64,000 nucleotides of DNA from Alphaproteobacteria bacterium (GCA_021776075.1 JAJFGQ010000018.1:1-64000); one strand, 5' to 3'; positions 34,198 to 53,572 are shown, counted from the first letter of the stretch. Made by a program: numbers and translations. The notes: generated by a model not told the origin, from the sequence alone.

Positions 34198-34758
34198 TTA
34201 AAAAGGGTTGAATTCCCGGAATTTCCAGATGCCAATAAGCACAATACCAATAGCAAAACCCGGACCGGCAGGGATTTGCAGTTGAGAGAGATTAAAGTGG
34301 CTTTCTGTTTTTTTTGCGATTCCTGCGGCGTGGATCAGGCCGTGGATAAGAGAGGCGCAGGCGCCAGCCGCCATAGCCAGCATCACGGTCTCCGGTCCCA
34401 GCCATATACCGGCCGCACCAATCAGTTTAACGTCCCCCAGCCCCAGTGCGTCAGCCTTGTATAGATGGTTGGCGGCAGCTCTTAACAAATACAGGGTTGA
34501 AAAACCGATAATGCCGCCCAGAATGATGTGGGGTACGGATACATACTGTGCGAGTGTCGTCAGATGAAAGACAATACCCAGTGTGGCAAAGCCCAGAACA
34601 AGTTCGTTTGGCAATAATCGTGTCTTAAGGTCAACTACCGATAATGTAGCCAGCACGGCTACGCCCCCTACGAGGCATGTGAACGCAATCCAACTAAGCA
34701 TAAGCCAATGGTTCTCTTGTAGGTTGATGTGCTGATAGCAGGTTACACAGCCTATCAT
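34198..34758 (-). CDS. Prepilin peptidase (A24 family)
   Basis: A membrane aspartyl protease of 186 residues that cleaves prepilin leaders. The two catalytic Asp residues are in VVDLKTRLLPNELV near residue 43 and GLGDVKL near residue 106. About five hydrophobic spans are seen. Like CpaA/TadV it lacks the N-terminal methylase domain of PilD. It is divergent from the response regulator that heads the pilus-like operon and is the likely processing enzyme for the two prepilin-like proteins there. Confidence 0.92.
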   Translation of the reverse strand: MIGCVTCYQHINLQENHWLMLSWIAFTCLVGGVAVLATLSVVDLKTRLLPNELVLGFATLGIVFHLTTLAQYVSVPHIILGGIIGFSTLYLLRAAANHLYKADALGLGDVKLIGAAGIWLGPETVMLAMAAGACASLIHGLIHAAGIAKKTESHFNLSQLQIPAGPGFAIGIVLIGIWKFREFNPF

Positions 34759-34928: not shown

Positions 34929-35315
34929 ATGTCTGAAAAAGCTATAGTTCTTGTCGTAGAGGACAATGATTTTATAAGGAAACAGATTGTAACTTATCTG
35001 AGTGATTCTGATTTTGCGACGCTGGAGGCCTCTGAGGGCGGAGCCGCTATGGATCATATGATGTCGAATGACGGGATTGCGCTGGCGATTGTGGATGTGA
35101 GGATGGAGCCCGTTGGCGGGTTTGATTTTATACGGATTCTGCGGAGCGAAAATATTAATGTGCCTGTTGTTCTCGTAACGGGTGACCAGACTCCTGATAT
35201 TCTGGAGCAGGCAGGAAAGCTGGATGTGAGTGCTGTTTTGATGAAGCCGGTGGAGAAAGACAGGTTGGTGAAAACGGTCGAACGCACGATAAATCACGGG
35301 AAAGGGGCGCGGTGA
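34929..35315 (+). CDS. Single-domain response regulator (CheY-like)
   Basis: A 128-residue receiver domain with no output domain. The acidic pocket is VVEDND near residue 9, the phosphoacceptor Asp is in LAIVDVRMEP near residue 56, and the conserved Thr and Lys are in VLVTGDQ and VLMKPVE. The ATG at 34929 has GGA-rich sequence upstream; a TTG at 34908 is open but less likely. Its stop codon overlaps the GTG start of the secretin gene (GTGA), so the two are translationally coupled. No histidine kinase lies in this operon. Confidence 0.9.
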   Translation: MSEKAIVLVVEDNDFIRKQIVTYLSDSDFATLEASEGGAAMDHMMSNDGIALAIVDVRMEPVGGFDFIRILRSENINVPVVLVTGDQTPDILEQAGKLDVSAVLMKPVEKDRLVKTVERTINHGKGAR

Positions 35316-36964
35316 TCTGTATGGAAAGGCATTCTAATATCTGCTGTTCCGAGGTACGGATACATTTGAAGACGGGTGTGTCGGGTTTCTGTGCGAGAAA
35401 GTCTCTTTTATCGCTGTTCTCTGTCTTGCTGCTGCTGTCTTGTGCGCAGGCAGATGTCCCAAATCCGCGCAATGTCAACATTCCCGCACCTGCCACGGCA
35501 GATGAAAGGGCGGAAGCCGTGAACGAACGACCGGATAGTGTTTTGTTTCTGCCTTTGGGTCAGGATGTTCTCGTGCCGGAGGTGAGCGCTAATGATCCTC
35601 TGCCTTCTGTCCATGTGGGGCCGTTTGAGCTGCGTTCCGAGACATTGGCCGGGGCGTTGCAGCTTATTTTAGCCGATTACGAGGTGCCGTTGGCGTTTGA
35701 GACGGATGAAGGCCTGAACAGGCGTATTACAGTGGCGAATTTGCACGGTCCGGTGAATAAGGTTGTGCGTCAGATTTGCTCTCTCGCTGATTTATATTGT
35801 GCTTATGAAGATGGTTTGTTGATCGTTAAAGAGACGCAGACTTTTACGGTCAGGATACCGCCTATCAGTCAGGATGCAGCTTTCATGACTAACGTAGCGA
35901 CGGGACTGCAGGCGATTATTGGTGCTTCTGCTATCGTTGATTTGTCGACACGGACGCTTATTTATGAGGCAACGCAGCGCACCGCCGAGATGGCTGAGCG
36001 TTATTTTCAGCGTATGCGCTCCAGCACGGCTCTGATTGTTTTTGAGACCTATATCTGGGAGGTTCAGCTTAATAACGGGAATTCCACAGGTGTCAAATGG
36101 GAGCTGATTGATAGTTTTGGAAAGTTCGCGTCGAATGTTAAGCTTTCCGGCGCTGTAGGGGCTGATTTCTTAAATCCGGTCAGTATTGGATTGCCGACAA
36201 CGCAGGGTGCTACCGGCGGTCCGTTTGCGCCGTCTGACGTCTTTACGTTTTTGTCGACTTTTGGTGCTGTTAAGACTGTTTCCCAGCCGCAAATTACTGT
36301 GTTATCCGGCTCGTCTGCCCGTTTGCGCGCGGCAGATACGCAGAATTTTGTCGCTCGTGTTGCGGAAACGATTGATAACGGACAATCGACAACGTCTGTT
36401 GAGACAAGTTCTGTGGATACCGGTTTTACACTTGATATTGCCAGTGCCTGGGATAATGCAACGGTTTATGCGGATATTGAGATTGCGTTGACTGATGTGT
36501 CTGATATTAAAGATTTTGATTTTACATCGGGCGGTGGCGGTACGACAACGGTGCAGCTTCCCGAAACAACGGAGCGGGAATTGTCGACGCAGGTTAGAAT
36601 CAGGCCTGGTGATTCTCTTCTGATCGCGGGACTAGTCAGGGAGAATGATGCTTTTAAATCATCAGGTCCCGGCTTTATGGAGCCGTTTTTTCCAACCAGC
36701 AGGGAGGCAACGACGTCAAATCTTGAACTTGTCTTTCTTTTGCGTCCGCGGGTTATTGTGTTTACCAGCCCCAGTGAAGGGGATCATTACAACTCTGTAC
36801 GGGGGGCGGCTCATAGAGAGAAGGATTCTTTTGATTATGATTTTGAACCTTTGTTGGAGCTTCCTTCTGTTTCCAGTGACATTGATTTAACGGAAACCCC
36901 TATGGGGTCTTTGTCGTCCGATCTTTTGGATCCTGCTTCTGTGCCGTATGGGGGAGTGAGGTAA
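35312..36964 (+). CDS. Outer-membrane secretin lipoprotein of a type IV pilus/type II-like system
   Basis: A 550-residue protein with a long N-region, then SLFSVLLLLSC, a lipobox-like site with Cys near residue 44. Residues about 100-175 resemble a secretin N0/STN domain, and about 330-490 form the secretin beta-barrel, ending in TSNLELVFLLRPRVIVF; the VRIRPGDSLLIAGLVRE segment is typical. The lipidation resembles PilN/BfpB secretins of type IVb pili. The GTG start overlaps the response regulator stop. First structural gene of the operon; a gene with Ig-like modules follows two bases later. Confidence 0.9.
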   Translation: MICMERHSNICCSEVRIHLKTGVSGFCARKSLLSLFSVLLLLSCAQADVPNPRNVNIPAPATADERAEAVNERPDSVLFLPLGQDVLVPEVSANDPLPSVHVGPFELRSETLAGALQLILADYEVPLAFETDEGLNRRITVANLHGPVNKVVRQICSLADLYCAYEDGLLIVKETQTFTVRIPPISQDAAFMTNVATGLQAIIGASAIVDLSTRTLIYEATQRTAEMAERYFQRMRSSTALIVFETYIWEVQLNNGNSTGVKWELIDSFGKFASNVKLSGAVGADFLNPVSIGLPTTQGATGGPFAPSDVFTFLSTFGAVKTVSQPQITVLSGSSARLRAADTQNFVARVAETIDNGQSTTSVETSSVDTGFTLDIASAWDNATVYADIEIALTDVSDIKDFDFTSGGGGTTTVQLPETTERELSTQVRIRPGDSLLIAGLVRENDAFKSSGPGFMEPFFPTSREATTSNLELVFLLRPRVIVFTSPSEGDHYNSVRGAAHREKDSFDYDFEPLLELPSVSSDIDLTETPMGSLSSDLLDPASVPYGGVR

Positions 36965-36966
36965 GA

Positions 36967-38526
36967 ATGCTGTCTTGTAAAAAAATAAAAACTGTTTTGC
37001 CTCTGCTCTCTCTCTTTTCTGTTTTGTTTGTCTTGACGGTATGGGTTGGTGTTTCTTCTGCGTCGGCAAATGGCTTTTCCGATCCTGATGCACGAGGTAA
37101 GGCGGGACGGGGTGGTGACTTGCTGCCGGTTGACGCGGATGTTGATGGCGGGCAGATTACAATAGGGGCAACGGCGCAAGTGGTTGTTTTGTTCCGTAAT
37201 GATAGCGGACGGCCCGTTACGATGGGTGCTATCCAGCTCTATCCCTCTTCTACGGTGTCGGGTAAGGTTTCTTTGAATCAATGTTCTCAGGAGCCGCTGG
37301 CTTCCGGTGCCGTTTGTGCCGTCGCACTTTCCGTTAAGGCTTTGCAGTCCGGAACCTGGCGTGTTGAAATGTTGATGAGGCATAGCGGTCGTTCACGGCT
37401 TGTGACGTCGACTCTGTCCGGGCAGGTTGATGCCGGAGAGGATGGCGCGGAAAAATTTATCAGTGATATTGAAGCTATTCCAGATGAATTGGATTTCGGT
37501 AATCTGGATACGGCACATCCCATTATCAAAGCGATCGTTCTGAGGAATATTACGTCGGAGCCGGTTGATATTAATGCCGTATATATAGAGGCAGCAGATC
37601 AGGCCGGTTATTCTTTGAAAACGGATTGCGAGAGCCTTGGTCCGGGGCAGGCCTGTATTTTGACTGTAACCTGGTCTCCTGTTTCAAAGGGGCAGGCAAC
37701 GGGTGTTCTTCTTGTGGAGCATACGGGGCCGACGACGGTGGCGAGCGTCAATTTAGATGGGGACTATGATCCTGAAAACACAACAGAAGCCGAACTTTTC
37801 CCCGAGGCTGTTCCCGGGAAAGGGCTTTTGGTGGCGTCACTGAGTGAAGTTGCTTTCGGGTCAGGTATTGAAACAACGTCTGCGATTACGGTGTCTTTGG
37901 TGAATGTTGGTGATGCGCCTCTGGCGATTAAGGATATTCGTCTTGCCAGCACGGATAATGGCCTGAGTATCAGTAAAAAAGGTTGTGCGCCGGAAATGAT
38001 TTTAGAGCCTGTGGAGGCATGTCCTTTGACGCTTGCGTGGTCTCCGGTCAGAGAGGGTGCTATTCTGGATGATGTTCAGATTTTGCATGATGGCGCGCGT
38101 GGTATTCTTGTTTTGCCGGTGCGTGGCGATTCAAGCGGTGTAATTAGCCAGGATACGAAAGCTGTACGTTTGGCGGGGTCGGGCACGGCGACTCTGGCAC
38201 AGGGTGGTGGCGATTCTGATAGGCTGGTGCTAGTCAGGGATGATGATGTTGACCCCGCCAGCGTTTTGGACGGTTTTGTTGTGACGTCGCATTCACCGAA
38301 GCGTTCTATTATATCAGGACCGGGTGGTAGCCGTATTGTTTTTGATGGTGAGGAGGTCGTTTTGGGCGGTTTTCTCTGGTATGTGAATATTCGTTCCAGC
38401 GGCGTTGAGTTTAGAAGTGGCAATGAGAAGGTTCTTCTTCTTTTTGATAGATCTTTATCTTCTATTAACCGGGTTTCGACACAATCGAGTAGTGCCGCCT
38501 CTTCGTCGGGGAGTGGTGGGGGCTAA
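36967..38526 (+). CDS. Exported protein with three Ig-like (choice-of-anchor D) modules
   Basis: A 519-residue protein with a signal peptide (residues 1-35, cleavage near SASA-NG). Three related modules follow at about 60-155, 170-267 and 290-388. Each has the pattern of choice-of-anchor D/ASPM-SPD-2-Hydin domains (PDELDFGNLDTAHP, EVAFGSGIETTSA) and each has one Cys pair about ten residues apart (Cys106/117, Cys221/230, Cys340/352), likely disulfides. The C-terminal 90 residues form a separate unit with GSRIVFDGEEVVLGG and LFDRSLSSINRV, then a Ser/Gly-rich tail. Its place between secretin and ATPase suggests a periplasmic partner of the secretin. Confidence 0.82.
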   Translation: MLSCKKIKTVLPLLSLFSVLFVLTVWVGVSSASANGFSDPDARGKAGRGGDLLPVDADVDGGQITIGATAQVVVLFRNDSGRPVTMGAIQLYPSSTVSGKVSLNQCSQEPLASGAVCAVALSVKALQSGTWRVEMLMRHSGRSRLVTSTLSGQVDAGEDGAEKFISDIEAIPDELDFGNLDTAHPIIKAIVLRNITSEPVDINAVYIEAADQAGYSLKTDCESLGPGQACILTVTWSPVSKGQATGVLLVEHTGPTTVASVNLDGDYDPENTTEAELFPEAVPGKGLLVASLSEVAFGSGIETTSAITVSLVNVGDAPLAIKDIRLASTDNGLSISKKGCAPEMILEPVEACPLTLAWSPVREGAILDDVQILHDGARGILVLPVRGDSSGVISQDTKAVRLAGSGTATLAQGGGDSDRLVLVRDDDVDPASVLDGFVVTSHSPKRSIISGPGGSRIVFDGEEVVLGGFLWYVNIRSSGVEFRSGNEKVLLLFDRSLSSINRVSTQSSSAASSSGSGGG

Positions 38527-38570
38527 GTTTTATACTTGTTTTACCGCAAGGGTTTTCCCAAGGGTTTTTC

Positions 38571-40400
38571 ATGGACGATCAGGATTTACCGATAGATCAG
38601 AATACACCGGACTCTCTTTCCGAAGAAGATGAGTCTGACCGCCGCTCATCGGCGGATGATAGGCGGCTGACGGGTGGTACGCCTCCCGATGGTATAGAGC
38701 GACGGCAATGGCAGAGTCGCCGCAAGATGCGCGCCACTGAGGGGCGTGAGCGTTATCTTGATATGGTGCAGAAAGAGCGCGCCTTGCTTTTGGAGCAGGG
38801 TGTACCCCGTTCGACGGAACAGCTTCTGGATATGGCCGGAGTCAGTGCCTCTTCCGAGCAGGAAGAAGAAGGTGTTCGGGATCGCGCGACGGGCGATCAA
38901 CTGCGTTCAATTTTACCGGTTCAGGCGTGGCTTCCCCTAAGTATCCATTTGATTGGTTTGCAGGGGGGCTTGTTACGCATCGCGCCTTTGCATGATCTGA
39001 ATGACCGTCAGATGAAGGCCCTTATCTCAACAGCGCAACGCAGTGGTTTTCTGGTTGAAAAACTAGAGGTAGAGGTCTGGGATCGGGCCGAATTACTGGA
39101 AACCTTACGGCGGGTGCATGATCTGTCTGCTGACCGTTGTGAAAAAACACTGGCGCAGTGGTTGGCTGATCCTGATAACGGTCTTCTTCTGAATCAGTTT
39201 CAGCGCGATATGTTGGCGGAATCTTTGCAGATGCGGGCCTCTGATATTCATTTGTTACAGGATGGCAATCCCGATACGCCAAACTGGATTAAATACCGCA
39301 TTGACGGTGATATGGTGCCGATGCATCTTTTGCCGGCTGATTCCATGGCGCGTCTGACTACGCTTCTCAAGCGGGATGCCGGGTTGAATTTTGGTGATAA
39401 AACAACGCCGAAAGATGGCCGTTTCGGATTTTCCTGGCAAGGGCGGAATATTGATGTGCGGGTGGCGGCCGGCCCTCAGGCGCAAGAAGGGGAAAAGCTG
39501 ACATTACGTCTTTTGGACCGGGCTGCTTTGAAAGGATTTGATGATCTGTTCCGGCGTCATGAGGATGTGGGTGATTATCTTTCGGCTCTTTTATCGCCGG
39601 AGATTAAAGGTGGAGGCGGTTTGATTTTGCTTTCCGGGCCGACGGGGTCCGGTAAGACAACGACGATGTATGCCTGTGTCCAACAGATTGACAGGCGCCG
39701 TCGTCATGTTTTGACGATTGAAGATCCGATTGAGTATGAATTGCGTTATGCTACGCAGTGGCAGGTGCGTCCGGGGATGGCCGGGGGCGAGTTTTCCGAT
39801 CTTATTCGGGCGGCAATGCGTCATGATCCGGATTATATCATTGTTGGTGAGATGCGGGATGACGATACGGTGGAGACAGCTTTGCGGGCTGCTGAATCAG
39901 GGCATACGGTGATTTCAACAATTCATGCTGATACGGCCCTGCAGACGTTTGAGCGCTTGCGTACTTTGATGCCTTCGGAACGGGAAAGGTCATCAACCTA
40001 TACATTGGCGCAGCAAGTGAAAGCTGTTTTAAACCAAAGGCTCGTTCGAACTTTGTGTCAGGGGTGCGCCCATAAGGTGAAAGCCGAGGATTCTCTGGAC
40101 GAGAATGAATTGCAGGCCTGTGAAATTCCGGGCGACGCCGATATTCGGCGGCATAACACAACGGGTTGCGATTTATGTAACAGGACCGGTATCTCTGGAA
40201 GAACACTGCTTCTGGATGCTATTATGCTGACAATGGGACCGGGCCAAAGAAATGAAGTTTATGAAGCCCTTATGAGGAATGTCAATGATGTCATCAAGGA
40301 GGATGGTGTGATTATCCATACACGCCGGGAAGGCTTGATTGATCTTGTGCTGTCCGGCCTTGTTGATGCTAAACTGGCGATATCTTACATTGAAGAATGA
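38571..40400 (+). CDS. GspE/PilB-type assembly ATPase
   Basis: The cytoplasmic motor ATPase of the machine, 609 residues. Residues 1-190 are a variable N-terminal domain with an acidic, Arg-rich start. The ATPase core has Walker A GPTGSGKTTTMYA near 356, the Asp box TIEDPIEYEL, Walker B YIIVGEMRDDDT and the His box STIHADTA. A four-Cys zinc site, CQGC (about 496-499) with CDLC, is present as in GspE and PilB. The gene follows the Ig-module gene by 44 bases and precedes the GspF-like gene by 12. Confidence 0.93.
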   Translation: MDDQDLPIDQNTPDSLSEEDESDRRSSADDRRLTGGTPPDGIERRQWQSRRKMRATEGRERYLDMVQKERALLLEQGVPRSTEQLLDMAGVSASSEQEEEGVRDRATGDQLRSILPVQAWLPLSIHLIGLQGGLLRIAPLHDLNDRQMKALISTAQRSGFLVEKLEVEVWDRAELLETLRRVHDLSADRCEKTLAQWLADPDNGLLLNQFQRDMLAESLQMRASDIHLLQDGNPDTPNWIKYRIDGDMVPMHLLPADSMARLTTLLKRDAGLNFGDKTTPKDGRFGFSWQGRNIDVRVAAGPQAQEGEKLTLRLLDRAALKGFDDLFRRHEDVGDYLSALLSPEIKGGGGLILLSGPTGSGKTTTMYACVQQIDRRRRHVLTIEDPIEYELRYATQWQVRPGMAGGEFSDLIRAAMRHDPDYIIVGEMRDDDTVETALRAAESGHTVISTIHADTALQTFERLRTLMPSERERSSTYTLAQQVKAVLNQRLVRTLCQGCAHKVKAEDSLDENELQACEIPGDADIRRHNTTGCDLCNRTGISGRTLLLDAIMLTMGPGQRNEVYEALMRNVNDVIKEDGVIIHTRREGLIDLVLSGLVDAKLAISYIEE

Positions 40401-40412
40401 TTGTAGGCCGTT

Positions 40413-41630
40413 ATGCAGCAATGGGTAGCTGAAATTGTATATGACTCCCCGTCCGGCCCCAAAAAAATGGTCGAGTCTTTTTACATGCCATCAGTGAATG
40501 ATGTGCGGGATATTGTGGCCCAGAAGGGCGGTTATCTTTTGTCTGTCCGTCCGCATGAACGCTCTCCGCTGGAGCGGCTTCTGGCGCGTTCTTCCTGGTG
40601 GCAGGTGCAGCTTTTACGGGGGATACAGTTCCGTTCGGCGGCTACATCACCGGGGGTGGCGCTTTGGCGCATTATTCAGGCGGAAACAAATCCTATGCGC
40701 CAGAATATTATGGCGCCGGCGCGGGAGGCTTTATCCCGGGGTATGGGGGTGATCGACGCTCTGAGAGCCCTGCGTATATTTGATCATGGCACGATTGCTA
40801 TTCTGGCTGCCAGCGAGCGGGCGAATAAATTGGTGGAAGGTATTCCTCATGCTATCCACTCCATTACACAAAAACGTAAAAATACACGGGTTTTGGCCGG
40901 TACGATGTCGTGGTTGGGTATCGATGTTGTTATGATTGTCCAGTCTTTGTTTTGGGGCAAGGGGATGGTTCTGGAATGGTTTCGGGGGAACGCACCGACT
41001 GCGCCCGATGAGTTGGAAAGTTACTTGCGTGTTGTCGATAACCTTGAATTAACCTGGAATGTCTTGATTTATATTTCTTTTGCGTCGGGTGCTTTTCTGG
41101 CCTGGACTATTTTCTCCTTCTGGCTCAATAAAGGAAAAATAGATTGGCCAACAGCGCGCGTGGTACGGAAAATCCCTCTGATCGGTGCTTATCTTCGTGA
41201 TCTGGGTTTTGCCGATTCAATGGTGGCGGCATCGCGGATGTTGCGCGGCCTTGTTCCTATCGGCGATGCTTTGAAACAGTCTTCGGAGGCGACGACTGTG
41301 CCGGAAGTTTCGGCTTACTGGACGGAAGCCTCGACTGAACTGGAGCGTGGTGTGATGTTGGGGGCGGCATTGGACCGTAAACCCTTGACGCGGAATGAAC
41401 GTTTGGAACTGGCAAGCTTGTCTGATCTTGCGCAAGTTGCTACAGTGTTAGAGTCTATTGCCGAAATGCGTTCTGGTTCGGCAAAAACCAAACATAGTAT
41501 AATTGTCTGGGCTGCTTTTGGCTTGACTGGTGTATTTCTGGCGATTGCTTTTGGTAGTGCAATTTATGCTTTGACGGTCATGAATATGAGTATGGACAGT
41601 ATGATGGGCGGCTTGATGCAAGGGATATGA
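40413..41630 (+). CDS. GspF/PilC-type inner membrane platform protein
   Basis: A 405-residue polytopic membrane protein with two T2SSF-like domains (about 60-180 and 260-380). Hydrophobic spans lie at about 165-185, 210-240 and 365-395. Segments such as LSRGMGVIDALRALRIFDHG and SRMLRGLVPIGDALKQSSE match the repeated GspF motif (paired-helix domains before each membrane region). It should anchor the ATPase and prepilins. It overlaps the next gene by four bases (ATGA). Confidence 0.9.
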   Translation: MQQWVAEIVYDSPSGPKKMVESFYMPSVNDVRDIVAQKGGYLLSVRPHERSPLERLLARSSWWQVQLLRGIQFRSAATSPGVALWRIIQAETNPMRQNIMAPAREALSRGMGVIDALRALRIFDHGTIAILAASERANKLVEGIPHAIHSITQKRKNTRVLAGTMSWLGIDVVMIVQSLFWGKGMVLEWFRGNAPTAPDELESYLRVVDNLELTWNVLIYISFASGAFLAWTIFSFWLNKGKIDWPTARVVRKIPLIGAYLRDLGFADSMVAASRMLRGLVPIGDALKQSSEATTVPEVSAYWTEASTELERGVMLGAALDRKPLTRNERLELASLSDLAQVATVLESIAEMRSGSAKTKHSIIVWAAFGLTGVFLAIAFGSAIYALTVMNMSMDSMMGGLMQGI

Positions 41631-42604
41631 ATTTGGCGCTGTCGGGGAAAGATAAAGAGGTTTCTAGTAAGGACGCTGCCGATTCCGGTGTGGCGCGTCT
41701 GAAGCCGGGCTTGTCTGACTATATCGCGGGTGAAACCGCTGCCTTTCAAGCGACTTTGTCTCCTTTTTTGCCGAATGATATTGTGGGCGGGTCTATCCCT
41801 CACATACCGGGTACGGAAGAGGAGGGGGTCTGGAATGCCGCGTCTCAGGCCTGCGGGACCGAGCGCGTTCATTATTGTTATTCGGTGGAAGAAAACCGGT
41901 GCTGGTATCTGGCGTGTCCGTCATCCTCTTTGGCTTCAAATCCGGATAGTTGGTGCCCTTTGGCGGCCTCTTTGCCGGGGAATAGCGAGTATTGGGACCG
42001 GGAAACGGTCTATTTGTATGAACAGGAAGGGACGGCTTCGGCCTTGCGCTGGGACCCGGAGACGGCGCGTATGCAGGTTTTTCTGGGTGCGTCGCGGACT
42101 TTGTTGCCCCGTATTCAGAGCATGGATGCCAATTTTGTAACCATTAATCCGGAGATTGCCGTTACGATACCGTGGAAAAACCGGGCATTGAAGTCAGAAA
42201 AATTATCGCGCGCATCGGCCAGTTTGCTTCTTTATTTTGGCTTGCTTGTTAATTTTTTGGCTATACTTACTCTTTTGTTTCAGTACCTTATAACAAATTT
42301 TGTGGATCGGGACCTCTCGAAAGTCAAGGCTGAAACGGAAAAAGCCTCTACGGATTTGATGTTGAAGGCCTATAAGGCTTTGCAGAGTGATACGATTAAG
42401 CATCTGGTGCGTGTGCAGGCGTTGCTGGATGCCTTGCAGAAAATTGACGGCACGTTGGTGCGTTATGAGGTGAATAAGGGCAGCGTAGAGTGGGATGCGC
42501 TCGTACCGCAGTCTTTCAGCGGTTGTACCGGTATTTTGGCCGGTTGTCAGGTGCAGCCGGGGCTGGAAAAGGACGGACGCGTCAGAATTAGAGGAACGCG
42601 TTGA
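41627..42604 (+). CDS. Single-span membrane protein of the pilus-like operon
   Basis: A 325-residue protein that I do not recognise by sequence. Residues 1-190 are soluble with six Cys (ACGTERVHYCYS, CWYLACPSS, CPLAAS), perhaps disulfide-linked. One membrane span lies at about 195-220 (LLLYFGLLVNFLAILTLLF), followed by a coiled-coil-like helix (LSKVKAETEKASTDLMLKAY). Position and layout suggest a PilO- or GspL/M-like inner-membrane assembly protein. It is translationally coupled to the GspF-like gene. Confidence 0.78.
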   Translation: MNLALSGKDKEVSSKDAADSGVARLKPGLSDYIAGETAAFQATLSPFLPNDIVGGSIPHIPGTEEEGVWNAASQACGTERVHYCYSVEENRCWYLACPSSSLASNPDSWCPLAASLPGNSEYWDRETVYLYEQEGTASALRWDPETARMQVFLGASRTLLPRIQSMDANFVTINPEIAVTIPWKNRALKSEKLSRASASLLLYFGLLVNFLAILTLLFQYLITNFVDRDLSKVKAETEKASTDLMLKAYKALQSDTIKHLVRVQALLDALQKIDGTLVRYEVNKGSVEWDALVPQSFSGCTGILAGCQVQPGLEKDGRVRIRGTR

Positions 42605-42687
42605 AATAAATGTAAAATTTTATACTGTATTAAGATTTTAAGACTAAAATCAGTATAAGCAGGATTGTTTTGGGGAGGGAATAGGGT

Positions 42688-43218
42688 TTGGACTTTAAGT
42701 CGATTGATTGGCGCGCATTGCAGCGTTATACCAGCCCCAAAGCTGCCGGGGATCTGAATGATTTTCTTGAAAAACTGCCGCAAACGGCGGGTCAGACCGT
42801 GTTGATTGCGGCCGGGATTGCCTGGGCTTCGGCGGCGGCGATTGGTTTATATACGACGGTACAGATTCAGAGTCTGACAGAATTACGGGCGGAACTAAAG
42901 GATGTACAGGCTTTGCGGCCGATTGTACCGTCTGTGCGGGATATTCCCGTGGGGACGAATGAAGTGAAGAATTTTGCAGCCACTTTGGTTGAAACCTATC
43001 CGGGTCTGAATATAAGGCAACAGGGCGCATCTATTCATATCACATCGAATTCAACTGGTAATTTCGGGCAGTTTCGGGAAGCTATTGGCCATGTGCAGAG
43101 TGGCGGTAACGGCTGGCGCGTGTCCGTGGATCGTTTATGCGTCGGGCGGGAATGTAAACAGAATAAGCTGGCCGCTCTCTTGAAAGTCAATAAGGTTTCC
43201 GTGGATAAACCCCGATAG
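42688..43218 (+). CDS. Small bitopic assembly protein of the pilus-like operon
   Basis: A 176-residue protein with one membrane span at about 37-57 (VLIAAGIAWASAAAIGLYTT), a short helix (LTELRAELKDVQALRP), and a periplasmic domain of about 90 residues with one Cys pair (LCVGRECK). The layout is that of PilO/GspM-type proteins, though no family is certain. The TTG start at 42688 has GAGGG about ten bases upstream. It is 83 bases after the previous gene. Confidence 0.75.
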   Translation: MDFKSIDWRALQRYTSPKAAGDLNDFLEKLPQTAGQTVLIAAGIAWASAAAIGLYTTVQIQSLTELRAELKDVQALRPIVPSVRDIPVGTNEVKNFAATLVETYPGLNIRQQGASIHITSNSTGNFGQFREAIGHVQSGGNGWRVSVDRLCVGRECKQNKLAALLKVNKVSVDKPR

Positions 43219-43280
43219 GAATAATTTTATATTTTTTGTATTTTATGTCGTGCTAGACTGCTGAAGGATTGGAGAATAAA

Positions 43281-44072
43281 ATGGAAGGGAAGATCATGAA
43301 TGATAGTGTAAAGAAAGAGGGCATGAGGAAAGGGGAACGCGGTAATGTCCTGTTCCTGATCCTGATTGCCGTGGCCTTGTTTGCCGCTTTGTCTTATGCC
43401 GTAACGCAATCAACGCGGAGCGGAGCTGGTGATACGGCTGGAGAAACGGCCTTGATTAACAGTTCAACGCTTACGCAGTATCCGGCAGCGATAAGAACGT
43501 CGCTGGTGAGAATGATTGTTAGTAGGGGGACAACGGCAGATGAACTTGCTTTTAATCCACCCTCTGATTTTGGTGCTGGTTTGGCTATTGATGACACGGA
43601 TGCGATTCCAACTGATGAGGAAAGCGCGGTCTTCCATCCAGCAGGCGGAGGGTCGACATATCAGCAGGCGGCAAGTGATGTAAGAAGTGCTGGCTCTTCG
43701 GGGACGTGGCATTATAACGGGAACTTTGAGATAACTCGCATAGGGACGAGTGGTGCCGGAGGGAATGAAGTTATGGCTTTTCTTCCCGGGTTGTCTCTCA
43801 GCGTATGTCGGCGTCTTAATCAGGAGTATGGTATTGTTGCCGGAACTTTTACGGTTGCAGATGTACCTGATGTTGTGATTGCAACGGATACCGATCTTTT
43901 GGATGATCATTTGATTGGCGAAACTCTGCCGACGAATGACAGAGATGATATAGATAACGCTACGAATGATTTGCGTGGGCAGCCTTTTGGGTGTTTCTAT
44001 GATGCGACTTCTGACGTTGATGGTCAAGCTAACGGAGATTATATCTACTACCACGTTCTTTTGGAGCGTTAG
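43281..44072 (+). CDS. Prepilin-like protein with non-canonical N-terminus
   Basis: A 263-residue protein with a short basic leader ending KGERG, then NVLFLILIAVALFAALSYAV, a prepilin-like hydrophobic helix. The Gly before the helix fits prepilin peptidase cleavage, but +1 is Asn and +5 is Leu rather than the Glu of type IV pilins. The rest is secreted, with a Cys pair (VCRRL, GCFYD). The ATG at 43281 has GGAG six bases upstream; a TTG at 43269 and an ATG at 43296 are alternatives. A terminator follows it. Confidence 0.82.
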   Translation: MEGKIMNDSVKKEGMRKGERGNVLFLILIAVALFAALSYAVTQSTRSGAGDTAGETALINSSTLTQYPAAIRTSLVRMIVSRGTTADELAFNPPSDFGAGLAIDDTDAIPTDEESAVFHPAGGGSTYQQAASDVRSAGSSGTWHYNGNFEITRIGTSGAGGNEVMAFLPGLSLSVCRRLNQEYGIVAGTFTVADVPDVVIATDTDLLDDHLIGETLPTNDRDDIDNATNDLRGQPFGCFYDATSDVDGQANGDYIYYHVLLER

Positions 44073-44106
44073 GCTGTAAGGAAGGCCTTGCTATTTTGAT
44101 CTTCGG

Positions 44107-44147
44107 CAACCCGGTCTTCTTGTTTCGAGAGGCCGGGTTGTTTTTTT
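44107..44147 (+). terminator. Intrinsic terminator after the first prepilin-like gene
   Basis: CAACCCGG (44107-44114) pairs with CCGGGTTG (44133-44140), followed by seven T residues. It separates the two prepilin-like genes and may lower expression of the second or mark a second transcript. Confidence 0.85.
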
Positions 44148-44157
44148 AAGGGGACGT

Positions 44158-45072
44158 ATGATTATGATGCCGGATAAAATTATTTCTAAAATCACGCGCT
44201 CTATTTTTTGCCGTCATTCCGGCGCAGGCCGGAACCCATTCATGAGCCTGCTGCGCTATGGGGGTAAATGGACCCCGTCCTCCGACGGGGTGACGGAAGA
44301 CAGTAGACATGCCAATAAGCGTACCGGCGAGTCTGGAAGTGCGCTGGTTTATATCCTGATCGCGATCGCTTTGCTGGCCTTGCTGACCGTTGTGTTTATG
44401 GAGCCGTCCAGCCAGCAGACGCAAAGCCAGAGCATGTTCAAAACCGTGTCCGAACTACGGTCGCAGATTGAATTTGTACGCTCTGCCGCGCAGGAATGCG
44501 TGATTGTCTTTCCGCGCGGGGATACGACTGTTGATACGAGCGGTCCCGGTACGGACCCCGGTGCGAATGACCGTTATCCGCTTAACCCGGATTCAGCCCA
44601 TCTGGCAACGGCTGCCGGGAACCGGAATGTATCCGGTATACGCTGTCCCGGCAGGATGGCGCAGGACGACTTTCTGGACAATTTAGGGGTCATGCAAAAT
44701 ACAGGCAACAACAATCAGCACCCCCTTGTTTTCGGCGGGTCCAGCGGTAAATTCATGCCGCCGGCACCGGGGTTGTTCAATGACTGGAAGTGGTATAACG
44801 GCACAGACGGTATCTTTTTCTGGATTGATACAGATAACACCGATGCGTTTATTACAACGGCTTTGCAGAAGGTCGATGATGAATTTTCCGAGTGCGAAGC
44901 TGATGTTATTGATGCCAGTGGCGGTCTTGTGGAGTTAACGAGCACGGCGACGGGAGCTGACCCCAAATGTGCGGCGGGAAGTACCTGTTTTCGAGTTTGG
45001 ATTATTGCGCAGGCCTCGAATGTATATCTCGGCGATACGGATGGTGAAGAAGCGGCGGTGCCCTGTCCGTAG
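44158..45072 (+). CDS. Second prepilin-like protein, leader contains a palindromic repeat
   Basis: A 304-residue protein. Its leader of about 60 residues ends RTGESG, followed by SALVYILIAIALLALLTVVF, a prepilin-like helix. As in the previous gene, +5 is not Glu. Residues about 18-46, including CRHSGAGRNP, are encoded by a dispersed palindromic repeat. The ATG at 44158 has AAGGGG five bases upstream, and no alternative in-frame start lies between the repeat and the helix, so the repeat is translated. The mature part has several Cys (RSAAQECV, IRCPG, ECEAD, KCAAGSTC) and Gly/Asp-rich loops, like a pseudopilin or minor pilin. Confidence 0.8.
   Translation: MIMMPDKIISKITRSIFCRHSGAGRNPFMSLLRYGGKWTPSSDGVTEDSRHANKRTGESGSALVYILIAIALLALLTVVFMEPSSQQTQSQSMFKTVSELRSQIEFVRSAAQECVIVFPRGDTTVDTSGPGTDPGANDRYPLNPDSAHLATAAGNRNVSGIRCPGRMAQDDFLDNLGVMQNTGNNNQHPLVFGGSSGKFMPPAPGLFNDWKWYNGTDGIFFWIDTDNTDAFITTALQKVDDEFSECEADVIDASGGLVELTSTATGADPKCAAGSTCFRVWIIAQASNVYLGDTDGEEAAVPCP
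44211..44296. repeat. Dispersed palindromic repeat element inside a coding region
   Basis: It begins CCGTCATTCCGGC and ends GACGGGGTGACGG, imperfect terminal inverted repeats. Internal hairpins are TTCCGGC-GCAG-GCCGGAA and ACCCCGTC-CTCC-GACGGGGT. The sequence type is well known as an intergenic repeat in many proteobacteria and translates as RHSGAGRNP. Here it lies within an open reading frame. Confidence 0.8.
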
Positions 45073-45090: not shown

Positions 45091-45268
45091 TTTGCGTTAG
45101 AAGCTTGCAAACCTTCAGTGTTGTCACCCCCGCGGTCCGCAAAGCGGACTTAAACAGCGGGGGTCTATAAAGACAGCCGCTTTGCGACTGACATATGGAT
45201 CCCGTCCGTCTAAGCGAGGCGAAGACGCCTCGCCAACGGGATGACGAGTATGGGATTCTTAACGCAAA
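45091..45268. repeat. Composite palindromic element with terminal inverted repeats
   Basis: The ends, TTTGCGTTAGAAG at 45091 and TTCTTAACGCAAA at 45256-45268, are imperfect inverted repeats. Inside are two nested hairpins: CCCCCGC (45127-45133) with GCGGGGG (45157-45163), and ATCCCGT (45199) with ACGGGAT (45236-45242) enclosing GCGAGGCG-AAGA-CGCCTCGC. It ends in GGGATGACG, related to the element at 44211. It fills the gap between the second prepilin-like gene and the amidase; no coding potential. Confidence 0.7.
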
Positions 45269-45273
45269 CGGCC

Positions 45274-46011
45274 TTATAACCCGCGCTTCATCCGCAACAG
45301 GTAATGCAACCGCGCGGCCATCTCCTGATTGGGGTTTCCAACAGATTCCGGGTTTTTAAAATCCTCCGGGCAAAAATGGCGCTGAAAGGCCGTAACAAGA
45401 TCAGTCAAAGAGTTATCCGGGCCATAGCCATATTCTTCCAGAGCATCCTTCAACTGCTTTTCGTCCGCAACATAAGACGAAGCCTTTTCAAAATCTTCTT
45501 TCAACGGCACAGGCCACGCGCCAATGTCGTTATCGGCCAGCATTTGCCAGTCAAACAGCTCCCCCGGATCGACTTTACGCGCCGGCGCCACATCAGAATG
45601 GGCAATCACATGATGCGGCTGAATATCGTGACGGCTTAAAATGCCCTTGCACAAAACAAGCAAGGCCTCCATCTGTTCTGACGGGAAAGGCCGATAGCCG
45701 TATTTGCGGCCCGGGTTAACCAGTTCAATACCGATGGAAGAAGAATTCACATCATCAATGCCATCCCAGTGGGAGACACCAGCATGCCAGGCCCGTCTAC
45801 CCTCCGCCACATAACGCGTTACCGTACCGTCCTCATCCACCATGTAATGGGCGCTGACACGACCGCCACCGGGATGCGCCTTGCGGCCCATAAAATAGGC
45901 ATCGGCTACGTCCGGGCCTTGCGTTTCGGTATAGTGCAATACCAAAAAGACAGGCTTGGCTCCATCACGGCGTTCATCATGATGAGTTGAAGGCTTTTCA
46001 ATGATTTTCAT
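45274..46011 (-). CDS. N-acetylmuramoyl-L-alanine amidase (AmpD/AmiD type)
   Basis: A zinc amidase of 245 residues cleaving the MurNAc to peptide bond. Candidate zinc ligands are in LVLHYTET near residue 26, AWHAGVSHW near residue 75 and the later HSDVAPARKVDPG. A C-terminal helical part (about 180-245) resembles a peptidoglycan-binding domain. No signal peptide is seen, so it may recycle muropeptides in the cytoplasm, although some close relatives are exported. It is convergent with the pilus-like operon. Confidence 0.9.
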   Translation of the reverse strand: MKIIEKPSTHHDERRDGAKPVFLVLHYTETQGPDVADAYFMGRKAHPGGGRVSAHYMVDEDGTVTRYVAEGRRAWHAGVSHWDGIDDVNSSSIGIELVNPGRKYGYRPFPSEQMEALLVLCKGILSRHDIQPHHVIAHSDVAPARKVDPGELFDWQMLADNDIGAWPVPLKEDFEKASSYVADEKQLKDALEEYGYGPDNSLTDLVTAFQRHFCPEDFKNPESVGNPNQEMAARLHYLLRMKRGL

Positions 46012-46114
46012 ACCGGCATGTTAGTATGCTTTTCCGTATCCGTAAATACGACGCTTAACCTTTTTTATCTTTTCAACGAATGTTAAAGTAGGTTGCTGTA
46101 AACAGGAGTGTTTC

Positions 46115-46777
46115 ATGAAAAAAATTCTTAAAGCCTTTCTACCCCTGTTGGTTATTGCCGGATCAGTTGGTGGGTTTATCAAATCTTTTCCTCCGGCAAA
46201 TGCGGAGAATAACGATATGAATGTCAGCACAACGATACCGGAAAACTACCCCGTGGCCACCTTCGCAGGGGGCTGTTTCTGGTGTTTGGAAAGTGTTCTC
46301 ATCCCCCTTGATGGCATTGTTCATACCCGCGTCGGGTATGAAGGCGGCTCCGTAGAAACCCCTACCTACGAACAAGTGAGCACCGGCAGAACCGGCCATG
46401 CGGAAACTGTTGAAATTTATTTCGATCCTGAAAAAACGAGCTATAGCGCCCTGACGGAATTTTTCTTGACAGAAGGGCACGACCCTACGGAACTGAACCG
46501 GCAATGGGTTGATACGGGACCGCAATACCGGTCCGTCATTTTCTATCATGACGAAGAACAAAAACAACAGGCCGAAGACGTTATAGCCCGTCTGACACAG
46601 GATAAATTTTATGACCGGCCTATTGTCACAGATATTGTTCCGGCGCAAATATTCTGGCCTGCGGAAGAGTATCATCAGCAATATTACAAAAAATATGAGG
46701 CGGATAACAAAAAACCGCACCAACGCCTTCTCCTGAAACAACAAAAGAAAAAGAAACAGAAACAGCGTAACAAATGA
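46115..46777 (+). CDS. msrA: Exported peptide methionine sulfoxide reductase A
   Basis: Reduces methionine-S-sulfoxide. A signal peptide (MKKILKAFLPLLVIAG, cleavage near PANA-EN) is followed by the catalytic motif FAGGCFWCLESV and segments GYEGG, TGHAETVEI, HDPTELNRQ and PQYRSVIFY. The C-terminus is a long basic KKKKQKQR tail, unusual for the family. Periplasmic location is inferred from the signal peptide. It overlaps the YggU-like gene by four bases; msrB is about 8 kb away and also exported. Confidence 0.93.
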   Translation: MKKILKAFLPLLVIAGSVGGFIKSFPPANAENNDMNVSTTIPENYPVATFAGGCFWCLESVLIPLDGIVHTRVGYEGGSVETPTYEQVSTGRTGHAETVEIYFDPEKTSYSALTEFFLTEGHDPTELNRQWVDTGPQYRSVIFYHDEEQKQQAEDVIARLTQDKFYDRPIVTDIVPAQIFWPAEEYHQQYYKKYEADNKKPHQRLLLKQQKKKKQKQRNK

Positions 46778-47031
46778 GCGATTTACAAATCAATTTGCGC
46801 CTGACTCCTAAAGCCTCTCAAAACGCCATACAGGGCTGGATCGAAGATGAAAACGGCCAACGTGTTTTAAAGGTCAGCGTCACAGCCGTCCCGGAAAAGG
46901 GAAAAGCCAATAAAGCGCTCATCAAATTACTGGCCAAAGAATGGCATGTCTCCAAAAGCAGCATCGAAATTATAAGAGGTGAAACAGACAAGAATAAGGT
47001 ATTGAAACTAAAGGAACCACCTGTGTTTTAG
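46774..47031 (+). CDS. DUF167/YggU family protein
   Basis: An 85-residue protein of the widespread YggU family (RLTPKASQNAI, VPEKGKANKALIKLLAKEW, IIRGETDKNKVLKL), function unknown. It is translationally coupled to msrA (ATGA overlap). The stop codon lies inside an AT-rich inverted repeat. Confidence 0.92.
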   Translation: MSDLQINLRLTPKASQNAIQGWIEDENGQRVLKVSVTAVPEKGKANKALIKLLAKEWHVSKSSIEIIRGETDKNKVLKLKEPPVF

Positions 47032-47049
47032 AAAAAAAATTTTCTAAAA
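47026..47049. repeat. AT-rich perfect inverted repeat over the yggU stop codon
   Basis: TTTTAGAAAA-AAAA-TTTTCTAAAA is a ten-base perfect stem with a four-base loop. It includes the TAG stop. It lacks GC pairs and so is a poor intrinsic terminator on its own, though the stem is long. Confidence 0.6.
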
Positions 47050-47122
47050 AAATAGGTTTTAGCTTTGAATATTACCCCTTCTTTTACCTTTTTCTGTCAA
47101 AATTTGTAGAGAATAAAAAAAT

Positions 47123-47752
47123 ATGGCGGATACAGATCGGAATAAGGGTTCTTTTTCTATGGGGAAAAGCGTTGAGTTATTGGGTTTGGCAGCGTTTAAC
47201 GTCTTTCTGGCGTTGATTTTGTCAATTATGTTTCTGTCGCAGGCGGATTCAAACGCCATTACAGAATTAACGGATGCCCATGTTGAAACATTCATTCAGG
47301 AGGTGTCCGATATTTCCAGCGGGCAGCGGGAGGATATGGATGCTTATGGCGTTACCAGCTACTTCATGGAGCATCTGGCAGAGGACAGCTCGTTTAAAAC
47401 AACACTGGAATATGATATCCCGGACATACCCTCTGGTGAAAGGGTTATGGAGATGGACAAGCTGAACTTCATCAGTCACGTTCTGCAAGGGTTACAATCC
47501 ATGACCCGCCATGAAACGCTGGTCAGAATTGAAAACATAACGATTGATGAAGAAGGAAAAAATGCCTTCGTACTGACAACAAATTATGAACGCGGCGTTA
47601 TGCCGGTCAGCAATGGAAACGGTGATGTCAGCATGATTCCGGTTGTAGGAACATCCTATTGCGAGCAAAAAATCATTCTGGCCGAAAAGCAAAATATTCA
47701 AATGGCACAGGCTAATTGTAATACAAGCATTAGCTTTACGGACATCTACTAA
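47123..47752 (+). CDS. Unknown membrane-anchored protein, paralogue of the next gene
   Basis: A 209-residue protein with one N-terminal membrane span (about 18-40, LLGLAAFNVFLALILSIMF) and a periplasmic domain. Its periplasmic part aligns with the following gene: EVSDISSGQREDM, YDIPDIPSGERVMEM, GVMP, VVGTSYCEQKI and IQMAQANCNTSISF. Two Cys are conserved between them, C-x-QK and the one before NTSISF. I recognise no family. Confidence 0.8.
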   Translation: MADTDRNKGSFSMGKSVELLGLAAFNVFLALILSIMFLSQADSNAITELTDAHVETFIQEVSDISSGQREDMDAYGVTSYFMEHLAEDSSFKTTLEYDIPDIPSGERVMEMDKLNFISHVLQGLQSMTRHETLVRIENITIDEEGKNAFVLTTNYERGVMPVSNGNGDVSMIPVVGTSYCEQKIILAEKQNIQMAQANCNTSISFTDIY

Positions 47753-47780
47753 AAGCACAAATAGAAAACGGGGTAGGATA

Positions 47781-48395
47781 ATGAAATTTTTAAATATAGC
47801 CATAATATCATGCTGTTGTTTTGTGCTGACAGCCTTCTCCCCCATCACCGCTCACGCACAAGCAAGTGGAAATAACATATTTTCTGCATCCCTGACCCGG
47901 GAAAACATCATGGCATTCCTTGAAGATGTAAAAGATGTCTCCATCGGCAAAAGACCGGAAATGACCCATGATGAACTCATGGACTATTTTAACAGCCATT
48001 TGGCCAATAAAAGCCTCTACAAAAGCATGACACGATTTGAAATTCCGGGATTTCCGGCGAAAGACATTGAAATGAAACTCGGCAAAGAAGAATATATCGA
48101 CAAGATTATCAACGGTCGGGAAACTCTGGAAGAATTTAACGCCAGCCTTGAGGTTAAAGCGCTCGAGATTACCCACGGCGGTAAGCTTGCCACAATTAAA
48201 ACAATCAGTACGGAAACAGGGCGGATGCCTTGGGCTGACCAATCCGGCCAGACAAAGTATATCCCCGTAGAAGGGCACTCTGAATGTGATCAAAAATTAA
48301 TTGTCTCACTGACAGGAACGATCCAGATGGCCGGCGCTGACTGCTTAACGACGATCAGTTTTGCGCCCTTTGGTGACAAACCTCTGGGAGAATAG
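47781..48395 (+). CDS. Unknown exported protein, paralogue of the previous gene
   Basis: A 204-residue protein with a signal peptide (about 1-27, ending AHAQA). It aligns over its length with the previous protein (DVKDVSIGKRPEM, FEIPGFPAKDIEM, GRMP, VEGHSECDQKL, IQMAGADCLTTISF), with the same Cys pair. Predicted soluble and periplasmic, while its neighbour is membrane-anchored, so they could form a pair. The two genes are 28 bases apart. Confidence 0.82.
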   Translation: MKFLNIAIISCCCFVLTAFSPITAHAQASGNNIFSASLTRENIMAFLEDVKDVSIGKRPEMTHDELMDYFNSHLANKSLYKSMTRFEIPGFPAKDIEMKLGKEEYIDKIINGRETLEEFNASLEVKALEITHGGKLATIKTISTETGRMPWADQSGQTKYIPVEGHSECDQKLIVSLTGTIQMAGADCLTTISFAPFGDKPLGE

Positions 48396-48407
48396 AAGAA
48401 CTGTTAA

Positions 48408-48863
48408 TTAATAGGACATCTGCGACAAAACCAGAGCAGTGGGCGCATCGAAATAATCACTCAAAAAAAACATGGCAAAATGAACAACGGCAAATAAGTA
48501 ATACCCGGCCAATTGATAAGCCGAGTCAATAGCCACAGCCTGAAAAGAATACCCCGTATAGAGAGATCCCATTAAAGTTGGTGGCATGGAAAAGGCCACC
48601 CACAGAAGGCATGCCAGACTAATCATTCCACCAAAAGAAGAGACATCCAGTATCCCGATCAAAAATGAGAAGAAACACGCAGACAACAACCAAAGCAGCA
48701 AAGAGATAAGAACAGGCCATTTCGTAAAGGGTTGGTCCACACCATCCTTGCCACGAGCTTCTCTCCAACGTGTCCCCATGACTTTGGGGTGATACCAAAG
48801 GACACCTAAAGCAAAGGCCAATACGGCAGATATAACGGTCTGCAAGTACGGAAATTCAAGCAT
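48408..48863 (-). CDS. DUF1761 membrane protein
   Basis: A 151-residue protein with four hydrophobic spans. It has the DUF1761 features: ALGVLWYHPKVMGTRWRE near the start, LLWVAFSMPPTLMGSLYTG in the middle and a final IDSAYQLAGYYLFAVV. Function unknown. Its start is 21 bases after sdhB ends, so it may be the last gene of that transcript. Confidence 0.82.
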   Translation of the reverse strand: MLEFPYLQTVISAVLAFALGVLWYHPKVMGTRWREARGKDGVDQPFTKWPVLISLLLWLLSACFFSFLIGILDVSSFGGMISLACLLWVAFSMPPTLMGSLYTGYSFQAVAIDSAYQLAGYYLFAVVHFAMFFLSDYFDAPTALVLSQMSY

Positions 48864-48884
48864 TATTTTTTTCCTTCGTTGTAG

Positions 48885-49676
48885 TTAAGCCCGCGAGGCC
48901 AGAAGTTTTTTAATCTCGGCAATGGAACGCGCAGGGTTAAGTCCCTTGGGACAGGTTTTTGTACAATTCATAATGGTATGGCAACGATATAAACGGAACG
49001 AATCATCAAGCTGATCCAGCCTCTCTCCTTTTGCTTCATCCCGGGAATCAGTAAGCCACCGCCATGCCTGCATCAAAATAGCAGGCCCCAAAAAGCGATC
49101 GCTGTTCCACCAATAGCTGGGACACGCCGTAGAACAACAGGCACATAAAATACACATAGCCGGGCCATGCCCGTCATCCCCATTCAACTTGTTGGCATCT
49201 TCTGAACTCTGTAATCTTTCGCGGTCCGGCGGTGCTGATGAGGTTTTCATCCACGGCTCAATCGACTCATACTGAGCGTAAAGATCCTTCATATCCGGCA
49301 CCAGGTCTTTGACCACTTTCATATGGGGAAGCGGCGTCACTTTCACATCACCCTTTACTTCATCAATTGATTTGGTGCAGGCCAGCGTATTGGTTCCGTC
49401 AATATTCATGGCGCAGGAACCGCATATCCCTTCCCGGCAAGACCGGCGCAATGTCAGTGTGCTATCAATATCGTTTTTGATATGGAGAAGGGCGTCCAGC
49501 ACCATCGGTCCACATTTATCGAGGTCAATCTCATATGAATCCAGACGCGGTGTTTCGCCACCCTCCGGGTCCCAGCGGTAAACCTTAAAAGTTTTTTTCC
49601 GCTTAACGTCGTCTTCGGCCGTAAATTTTGTGCCTTCTACGATTTTAGAATTTTTAGGGAGGGTGAATTGAGCCAT
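48885..49676 (-). CDS. sdhB: Succinate dehydrogenase iron-sulfur subunit
   Basis: Carries the [2Fe-2S], [4Fe-4S] and [3Fe-4S] clusters of complex II. Ligand groups are [33 protein letters not shown] and [17 protein letters not shown]. Length (263) is normal. It is separated from sdhA by a gene for a secreted protein and about 670 bases. Confidence 0.96.
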
Positions 49677-49752
49677 TAATTTCTATCCTAAACAAATGCG
49701 ACCAATACAGGATATACGTATCTTCTACCCTTGTGAAGGGGTTTTGGCCTCC

Positions 49753-50133
49753 CTATTCAAGAATTAAAAAACTGTCTGCGGGTGTTGTGACATAAGCATC
49801 AGGCTCTTTCCATTTTCGTTCGATAAATTGCATTTCTTCCTGAATTTCCTCCATACGGGCCGGGGAAAGGCGTTTACGTCCAATTGTCCTTTTGTACATT
49901 GGGCAGGGATACGCCTCATCATAAATAGCAACGTAATGGGCTGTGTCTTCCGTGTATTCATTCAGGATATCCTGCTCTGAGTGTGTCAGGGGTCTTCCCG
50001 TTTGCTCTTTCGTCAGAATGGAGATGACCCTTTCAGGTGCAGAAAAAGGTGGCTGTGAACAAGCTCTGGCCGTTCCGGGGGATAACAAAAACACCCCAAG
50101 CACGCATAAAAATATAATGATTCTGAATCTCAT
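49753..50133 (-). CDS. Unknown secreted protein inside the sdh locus
   Basis: A 126-residue protein with a signal peptide (MRFRIIIFLCVLGVFLLSPG, cleavage near TARA-CS) and two Cys in the mature part (Cys25, and one in AYPCPMY). The mature part is charged and helical. I recognise no family. It lies between sdhA (212 bases upstream) and sdhB (76 bases downstream) on the same strand. A link to succinate dehydrogenase is not otherwise supported. Confidence 0.68.
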   Translation of the reverse strand: MRFRIIIFLCVLGVFLLSPGTARACSQPPFSAPERVISILTKEQTGRPLTHSEQDILNEYTEDTAHYVAIYDEAYPCPMYKRTIGRKRLSPARMEEIQEEMQFIERKWKEPDAYVTTPADSFLILE

Positions 50134-50345
50134 GAATTATATTAGCATGCGAATATAATGATTATTTAACGGTGTCCGGAAAGCTCTATCTTTAAATGGA
50201 ATATATTCCTAATTTGTGATATAGTGAGGCTATCAACAGGAGAAAGGCGCCTTTGTTACAAAATTTCCGTAATGTGTATCAGAGGAAAAAACCACGAACA
50301 AACTGAAGGTCGCTTGTTAATTAAATGAAAACAGTCGCTTAGTGG

Positions 50346-52136: not shown

Positions 52137-52149
52137 AAAGTTTTTCCCG

Positions 52150-52635: not shown

Positions 52636-52638
52636 GGG

Positions 52639-53438: not shown

Positions 53439-53572
53439 GCTACAACTCTCTTATGTGTCTCTGAAAAACGAGTCCTTATCATAAGGATTGTGGCTTCGAT
53501 TTCAAATCCTAAATGTATTTCATACCAGTATGTTTTTTTGACACAGACAGGACAGGCTGCTAGGGAAGCCGG

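Follow-up and report, generated by a model that had tools for sequence, protein, structure and literature searches.

The locus lies within a window of 64,000 nucleotides, the whole stretch of DNA that was analysed, and comprises a plus-strand operon for a type IV filament machine, a divergent gene for a prepilin peptidase and, further downstream, a gene for a hybrid histidine kinase. The features are as follows.

34198–34758, minus strand: short prepilin peptidase, 186 residues (Peptidase_A24, 69 bits, Pfam), conserved beside the operon in related loci
34929–35315, plus strand: stand-alone receiver-domain response regulator (Response_reg, 72.9 bits, Pfam)
35312–36964, plus strand: lipoprotein secretin, forming the outer-membrane ring (Secretin, 58 bits, Pfam)
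36967–38526, plus strand: exported Ig-like/HR-like protein (ASH and HYDIN Ig domains, 52.7 and 37 bits, Pfam; choice-of-anchor D, NCBIfam)
38571–40400, plus strand: GspE/PilB-type assembly ATPase with CxxC...CxxC motifs (T2SSE, 262 bits, Pfam)
40413–41630, plus strand: GspF/PilC-type inner-membrane platform protein (T2SSF, 24.1 bits, Pfam; GspF, 26.8 bits, NCBIfam; position)
41627–42604, plus strand: putative GspL/BfpC/PilO2-like bitopic protein, 325 residues (AlphaFold2 fold comparison)
42688–43218, plus strand: putative GspM/PilO-like bitopic protein, 176 residues (position, architecture and AlphaFold2 fold)
43269–44072, plus strand: PilA1 prepilin, cleavage ...GERG/NVLFLILIAVALFAALSY, no Glu5 (alignment, with G, N+1 and L+5 invariant)
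44105–44147, plus strand: intrinsic terminator-like hairpin with a U7 tail between the PilA1 and PilA2 genes (RNA fold −24.7 kcal/mol, z = −4.4)
44158–45072, plus strand: PilA2 prepilin, cleavage ...GESG/SALVYILIAIALLALLT, no Glu5
56532–58868, plus strand: hybrid histidine kinase, PAS-HisKA-HATPase-REC-REC-Hpt (64% identity, 1056 bits, to the kinase of related locus L008)

The operon is tightly coupled, with 4-nt overlaps between the response regulator and secretin genes (GTGA) and between the genes for GspF and the 325-residue bitopic protein. A preliminary description of this DNA had listed a lipoprotein secretin, an ATPase, a GspF-like protein, two bitopic proteins and two prepilin-like proteins, and all of these genes were recovered at the same position and on the same strand; the Ig-module protein and the coupled response regulator heading the operon, which it had also named, are borne out by the domain matches given above. 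Its characterization of the system as T4P/T2SS-like and unusual agrees with the family searches, in which the peptidase, secretin and ATPase were matched and every NCBIfam naming cut-off was missed. The prepilin peptidase gene, absent from that description, is divergent from the operon and belongs to the same set; in Pfam its product is a Peptidase_A24 domain only, with no N-methylation domain. The response regulator has the active-site motifs VEDN, VDVRM, VTG and MKP. The secretin carries the lipobox LLSC, as read from the sequence, and its top NCBIfam matches are MshL (91.6 bits against a cut-off of 250.2) and the T4b PilN (80.9 bits, cut-off 287.65). The GspF protein falls just below the T2SSF cut-off of 25.2 in Pfam; it is found at the expected position, and 98 ORFs homologous to it were gathered. 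Neither of the bitopic proteins and neither of the prepilins matched a Pfam family.

The 325-residue bitopic protein was modelled with AlphaFold2 from 75 relatives (pLDDT 91.5), and the model is laid out as an actin-like cytoplasmic domain (~43–190), a transmembrane helix, a coiled coil and a ferredoxin-like periplasmic domain (~255–325). In comparisons with VIA, the cytoplasmic domain gave Z scores of 8.1 with PilO2Bp (4byz/4bz0), 6.5 with BfpC, 6.3 with EpsL and 5.3 with PilM, where the PilO2Bp match, a likeness at the level of fold only, spans 132–137 residues and stands ahead of unrelated folds. The periplasmic domain was compared with XcpY, PulL and EpsL and gave Z scores of 5.4–6.3, the highest being XcpY at 6.3. 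Since the two halves of the protein point separately to the GspL type, the assignment is stronger than either Z score alone. As modelled, the protein is of the GspL/BfpC/PilO2 type and fills the role of PilM, with Z scores that are middling and reach 8.1 at best; Foldseek alone gave no match below an E value of 0.001, the best being PilM at 0.017. The 176-residue protein is predicted to consist of a transmembrane helix and a ferredoxin-like domain, with an invariant C-x-G-x2-C motif (AlphaFold2, pLDDT 86.5). Its VIA Z scores were 6.5 with PilO (2rjz) and 5.7–6.3 with GspL and GspM, values equalled by unrelated folds, and its name as a GspM/PilO-like protein therefore rests on position and architecture.

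The Ig protein is composed of approximately three Ig-like modules followed by a C-terminal domain, at ~38248–38480, that resembles the HR domain of GspC and PilP. Alignment of its last 90 residues with GspC HR domains by hhalign gave probabilities of 60–80%, and six distant relatives of the protein gave 79% with PilP and 77% with GspC. Control windows taken from the other operon proteins gave 6% or less, the sole high control being an Ig-protein window that shares residues with the HR-like domain itself. When every member of the alignments was searched against Pfam, only scattered chance matches were obtained, save for one of the 55 HR-domain members, which matched T2SSC (E = 9e-4). PF11356 had no match anywhere in this genome, and a sequence search of the PDB with profiles of the HR domain and of both bitopic proteins returned nothing useful. 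In three distant loci (L098–L100) the gene at the Ig/HR position encodes a signal peptide, a Pro-rich linker and the HR-like domain only, which argues that the HR-like domain is the conserved core and the Ig modules an addition. The profile alignments thus point to a C-terminal HR-like domain in the GspC/PilP role. In T4aP, PilP connects the inner-membrane complex to the secretin (PMC10191384), and by analogy the Ig/HR protein would join the two here. The earlier statement that the operon has no recognised PilM or GspC-like protein consequently stands for sequence searches and fails at the level of fold and profile, where a GspL-type fold and an HR-like domain appear.

PilA1 and PilA2 both have a leader ending in Gly, a 20-residue hydrophobic segment and no Glu at position +5. 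In type IV pilins Glu5 is one of the best-conserved residues, and current models of assembly give it a central place. Reviews count its salt bridge as part of assembly (PMC10191384). Glu5 was present in none of 158 different prepilins of the system, which mostly have Leu or Tyr at this position; a further 19 ORFs were not placed automatically, and the prepilins inspected by eye among them have no Glu5 either. The N-terminal helix of PilA1 is nearly invariant, with the remainder of the protein 30–57% identical. The hairpin between the two prepilin genes may favour PilA1 transcripts. The 5' part of the PilA2 ORF contains a repeat-like stretch, GTCATTCCGGCGCAGGCCGGAA, at 44213–44234, because of which the true start of PilA2 is probably internal, at a GTG near 44290; this 22-mer occurs once in the window, and a look-alike stretch lies at ~45115–45250.

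A search with the PilA1 profile, which is not an exhaustive survey of prepilins, revealed seven copies in this genome, spread over six contigs, and 8–9 in two other genera, giving about 7–9 PilA1-type prepilins per genome. Enlarged families were seen in G371 (24 copies) and G367 (15 copies). Away from the operon, most copies stand singly amid unrelated genes. Each scattered site in this genome has at least one counterpart with conserved neighbours in another genus (three genera compared), so that these are old, distinct subunits and not a recent repertoire. Among 104 Micavibrionaceae genomes, 83 have both the machine and PilA1, two the machine only, ten PilA1 only (mostly incomplete or fragmented genomes) and nine neither, an association with a Fisher p value of 1.5e-6 (1.6e-7 in the good genomes) in which shared ancestry is ignored. 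The dispersed PilA1 set is lost together with the machine.

With the ATPase as query, 80 related loci were identified in Micavibrio-like and other alphaproteobacterial MAGs, their ATPases being 63–82% identical. All ten genes were found in the same order and orientation at 44 Micavibrionales loci, usually beside pyrB-plsY-dprA, and conservation of the whole block over dozens of genomes rules out chance; the machine headed by a response regulator is typical of Micavibrio-like genomes, where the preliminary description had proposed that synteny be examined. The GspL-like gene is present in 85 of the 104 Micavibrionaceae genomes (67 of the 79 good ones). A sample of 289 genomes drawn from the whole of Alphaproteobacteria has it in 10, one doubtful match being left out. 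Distant families retain the order secretin, Ig/HR, ATPase, GspF, L, M, prepilins and have no response regulator, which is the first operon gene in Micavibrionales loci and is absent at the distant loci L095–L101. The same gene order is found on the plasmids with the best matches, those of Rhodoferax ferrireducens T118 (NC_007901) and Methylibium petroleiphilum (NC_008826), whose proteins scored, respectively, 361 and 271 bits with the secretin profile, 440 and 386 with ATPase, 222 and 207 with GspF, 80 and 94 with the GspL-like protein and 31 and 67 with the GspM-like protein; the prepilins reached 100 bits with PilA1 and 75 bits with PilA2. The plasmid protein at the Ig/HR position scored an unconvincing 7.6 bits with the Ig/HR profile. 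The operon was earlier described as possibly lineage-specific, and this is contradicted by the relatives in other alphaproteobacterial families and on the two plasmids.

Several loci depart from the common arrangement. The Rhodoferax plasmid operon (L203, 10443–13827) has two tandem secretin-like genes, scoring 290 and 361 bits with the profile. Two loci of divergent Micavibrionaceae, L102 and L103 (genomes G375 and G376), have the secretin, Ig, L and M genes and no ATPase or GspF gene at the locus, and these genomes carry few or no PilA1 copies. In L044, L045, L047, L057, L060, L064 and L067 no M or prepilin gene was found at the locus after the GspL-like gene, which in six of the seven is followed by a sugar-phosphate transferase-like gene.

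In about 45 related loci, as seen in the neighbour clusters, a hybrid kinase gene faces PilA2, and the seven such kinases examined have a HATPase domain, two receivers and an Hpt domain. In this window an amidase gene occupies the place of the kinase, and the kinase orthologue is found at 56532–58868. Compared with the related loci, the stretch at 45274–58868, which runs from the amidase gene over sdhBADC, msrB and asd up to the kinase gene, appears to be inverted, and it is this inversion that separates the kinase from the operon here. We infer that the kinase and the response regulator, the latter absent at the distant loci, form a phosphorelay dedicated to the machine.

The components that define the type IV filament superfamily, namely a peptidase, an AAA+ ATPase, GspF, prepilins and a secretin, are encoded together at the locus. 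The operon is a complete type IV filament machine, an identity that is well supported, and it fits no named T4F system. With T2SS it shares the GspE-type ATPase, GspF, a secretin and the GspL-like/GspM-like pair, and it may share an HR domain; T2SS GspK likewise lacks Glu5. It differs from T2SS in that the HR-like domain is carried by the Ig protein, all prepilins lack Glu5 and the gene order is another; the T2SS equivalog cut-offs in NCBIfam were missed (33 of 351 bits for GspD, 230 of 630 for GspE and 27 of 424 for GspF), and no family match to the GspG–GspK pseudopilins was found at the locus in Pfam or NCBIfam. As to T4aP, the PilB score was 228 bits against a cut-off of 675.65, and the locus holds no family match to PilM, PilN, PilO or PilP. 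Type IVb pili (the R64 thin pilus; BfpC) resemble it in the lipoprotein secretin and in the actin-like cytoplasmic domain of PilO2/BfpC type, which is nearest to PilO2Bp and BfpC and is recognised at fold level only. The order in R64, however, is secretin, PilO2, PilP, ATPase, GspF, pilin, whereas here it is secretin, Ig/HR, ATPase, GspF, L, M, prepilins, and the operon has no PilL, PilM or PilV and misses the PilN cut-off. MshL is the best family match of the secretin, but the MSHA model has both mshL and mshM as mandatory genes (PMC6668835), and here the MshL cut-off was missed and the locus has no MshN and no second P-loop ATPase gene of the MshM type. The short prepilin peptidase without a methylase domain recalls Tad/Flp, from which the operon differs in its ATPase, of GspE/PilB and not CpaF type, and in having one GspF protein in place of TadB and TadC; the TadA-family ATPase model gave 61 bits against a cut-off of 373, with GspE and PilB the best ATPase matches. 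The two plasmid operons, mostly annotated as hypothetical genes, agree with it in gene order and encode homologues of the secretin, ATPase, GspF, L, M, PilA1 and PilA2, their prepilins too having no Glu5. These differ in having no Ig modules and no clear homologue of the response regulator, and the Rhodoferax operon has a second secretin together with a peptidylprolyl isomerase.

In an ATPase tree the members of the system, including the distant versions, form a group of 14 with support of 82/72, which is moderate and involves long branches; the group lies apart from GspE, HofB, PilB, PilT, R64 PilQ and CpaF. Two other pilus loci are found in the same genome, a Tad locus and a T4aP-like one that encodes PilT, PilU, a PilO-like protein, a PilM-PilN-like fusion and a prepilin with Glu5 (names read from the sequence). 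Each of these has its own ATPase and secretin and one of the two further A24 peptidases of the genome, so the operon encodes a third, separate system.

Conceivably, every Glu5-less prepilin is a minor or tip subunit, like GspK or PilX, and the filament itself is built from an ordinary Glu5 major pilin encoded elsewhere. In known T4F tip complexes the cap is a subunit without Glu5 (PMC10191384), and a Glu5 prepilin does exist in the genome. That prepilin, however, belongs to the T4aP-like locus, which encodes a separate PilT, PilU, ATPase and peptidase, while the operon machine has a peptidase of its own; moreover, the absence of Glu5 from all 158 prepilins extends to both plasmids. Together these points render the explanation rather unlikely.

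A secretion machine resembling T2SS, in which a short Glu5-less pseudopilus pushes exported proteins such as prey-digesting enzymes through the secretin, would be in keeping with the GspL/GspM-type inner-membrane proteins, an HR-like domain as in GspC and the lack of a PilT gene at the locus. In RNA-seq of M. aeruginosavorus, most "type II secretion" genes were raised in the attachment phase and GspCGHK were not found (PMC3189940), and that annotation may include this locus; the same study names GMV0530, 0902, 0903 and 1530 as pilus genes with high expression, which are given no weight here. On the other side, the equivalog scores of GspD, GspE and GspF fall far short, the locus has no GspG-, H-, I- or J-like pseudopilin, and several scattered prepilins per genome are ill-suited to a pseudopilus. 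Secretion is thus an unlikely function, yet it ranks second to an adhesive pilus. DNA uptake through a competence pilus, suggested by dprA ~2.3 kb upstream, is very improbable, because ComEC, present in 97 of the 104 family genomes, is kept in the nine from which machine gene and PilA1 are both absent, and a second locus with PilT and PilU is available for the purpose.

The best reading of the locus, and probably the correct one, is an adhesive pilus under the control of a phosphorelay, whose machine represents an unassigned branch of the T4F superfamily. Prepilin cleavage by the short peptidase would occur at G/N or G/S, with N-methylation probably absent. The GspL-like protein would offer its actin-like domain as the docking site for the ATPase, which would drive the GspF platform; the platform, we infer, assembles a filament from subunits without Glu5. 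The HR domain of the Ig protein could then clamp the inner-membrane complex to the lipoprotein secretin, with the Ig modules spanning or bracing the periplasm. The main subunit is likely to be PilA1, given the terminator that follows it, its duplication in some loci and an N-terminal helix that hardly varies; minor or alternative subunits may come from PilA2 and from the PilA1 paralogues scattered over the genome. The kinase phosphorelay is predicted to switch the machine through the stand-alone receiver. As for its role, a contact pilus for adhesion would be the most likely, with other cells as a plausible target; contact with cells is a guess from the lineage, and the predatory setting justifies a test of prey contact without being evidence for it. 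The wider proposal, that a distinct T4F branch builds true filaments entirely from Glu5-less subunits, with at least about seven scattered orthologous pilins and a dedicated phosphorelay, as the contact pilus of Micavibrio-like bacteria, is a tentative one and falls somewhat short of an even prospect.

What is new here is the set of Glu5-less prepilins, the dispersal of PilA1 and the kinase beside the operon, inverted away in this window. If the wider proposal is true, this branch does without the neutralisation of the N-terminal amine by Glu5 that occurs in ordinary type IV pili. A self-contained machine without Glu5 in any of its known subunits, found in two classes of proteobacteria, would test the need for that contact. 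The locus also shows how a GspC/PilP-type clamp may be fused to Ig modules, and puzzles of the kind in which GspCGHK seem to be missing could be answered by naming divergent equivalents. Micavibrio biology, in turn, would gain a defined candidate for contact with prey.
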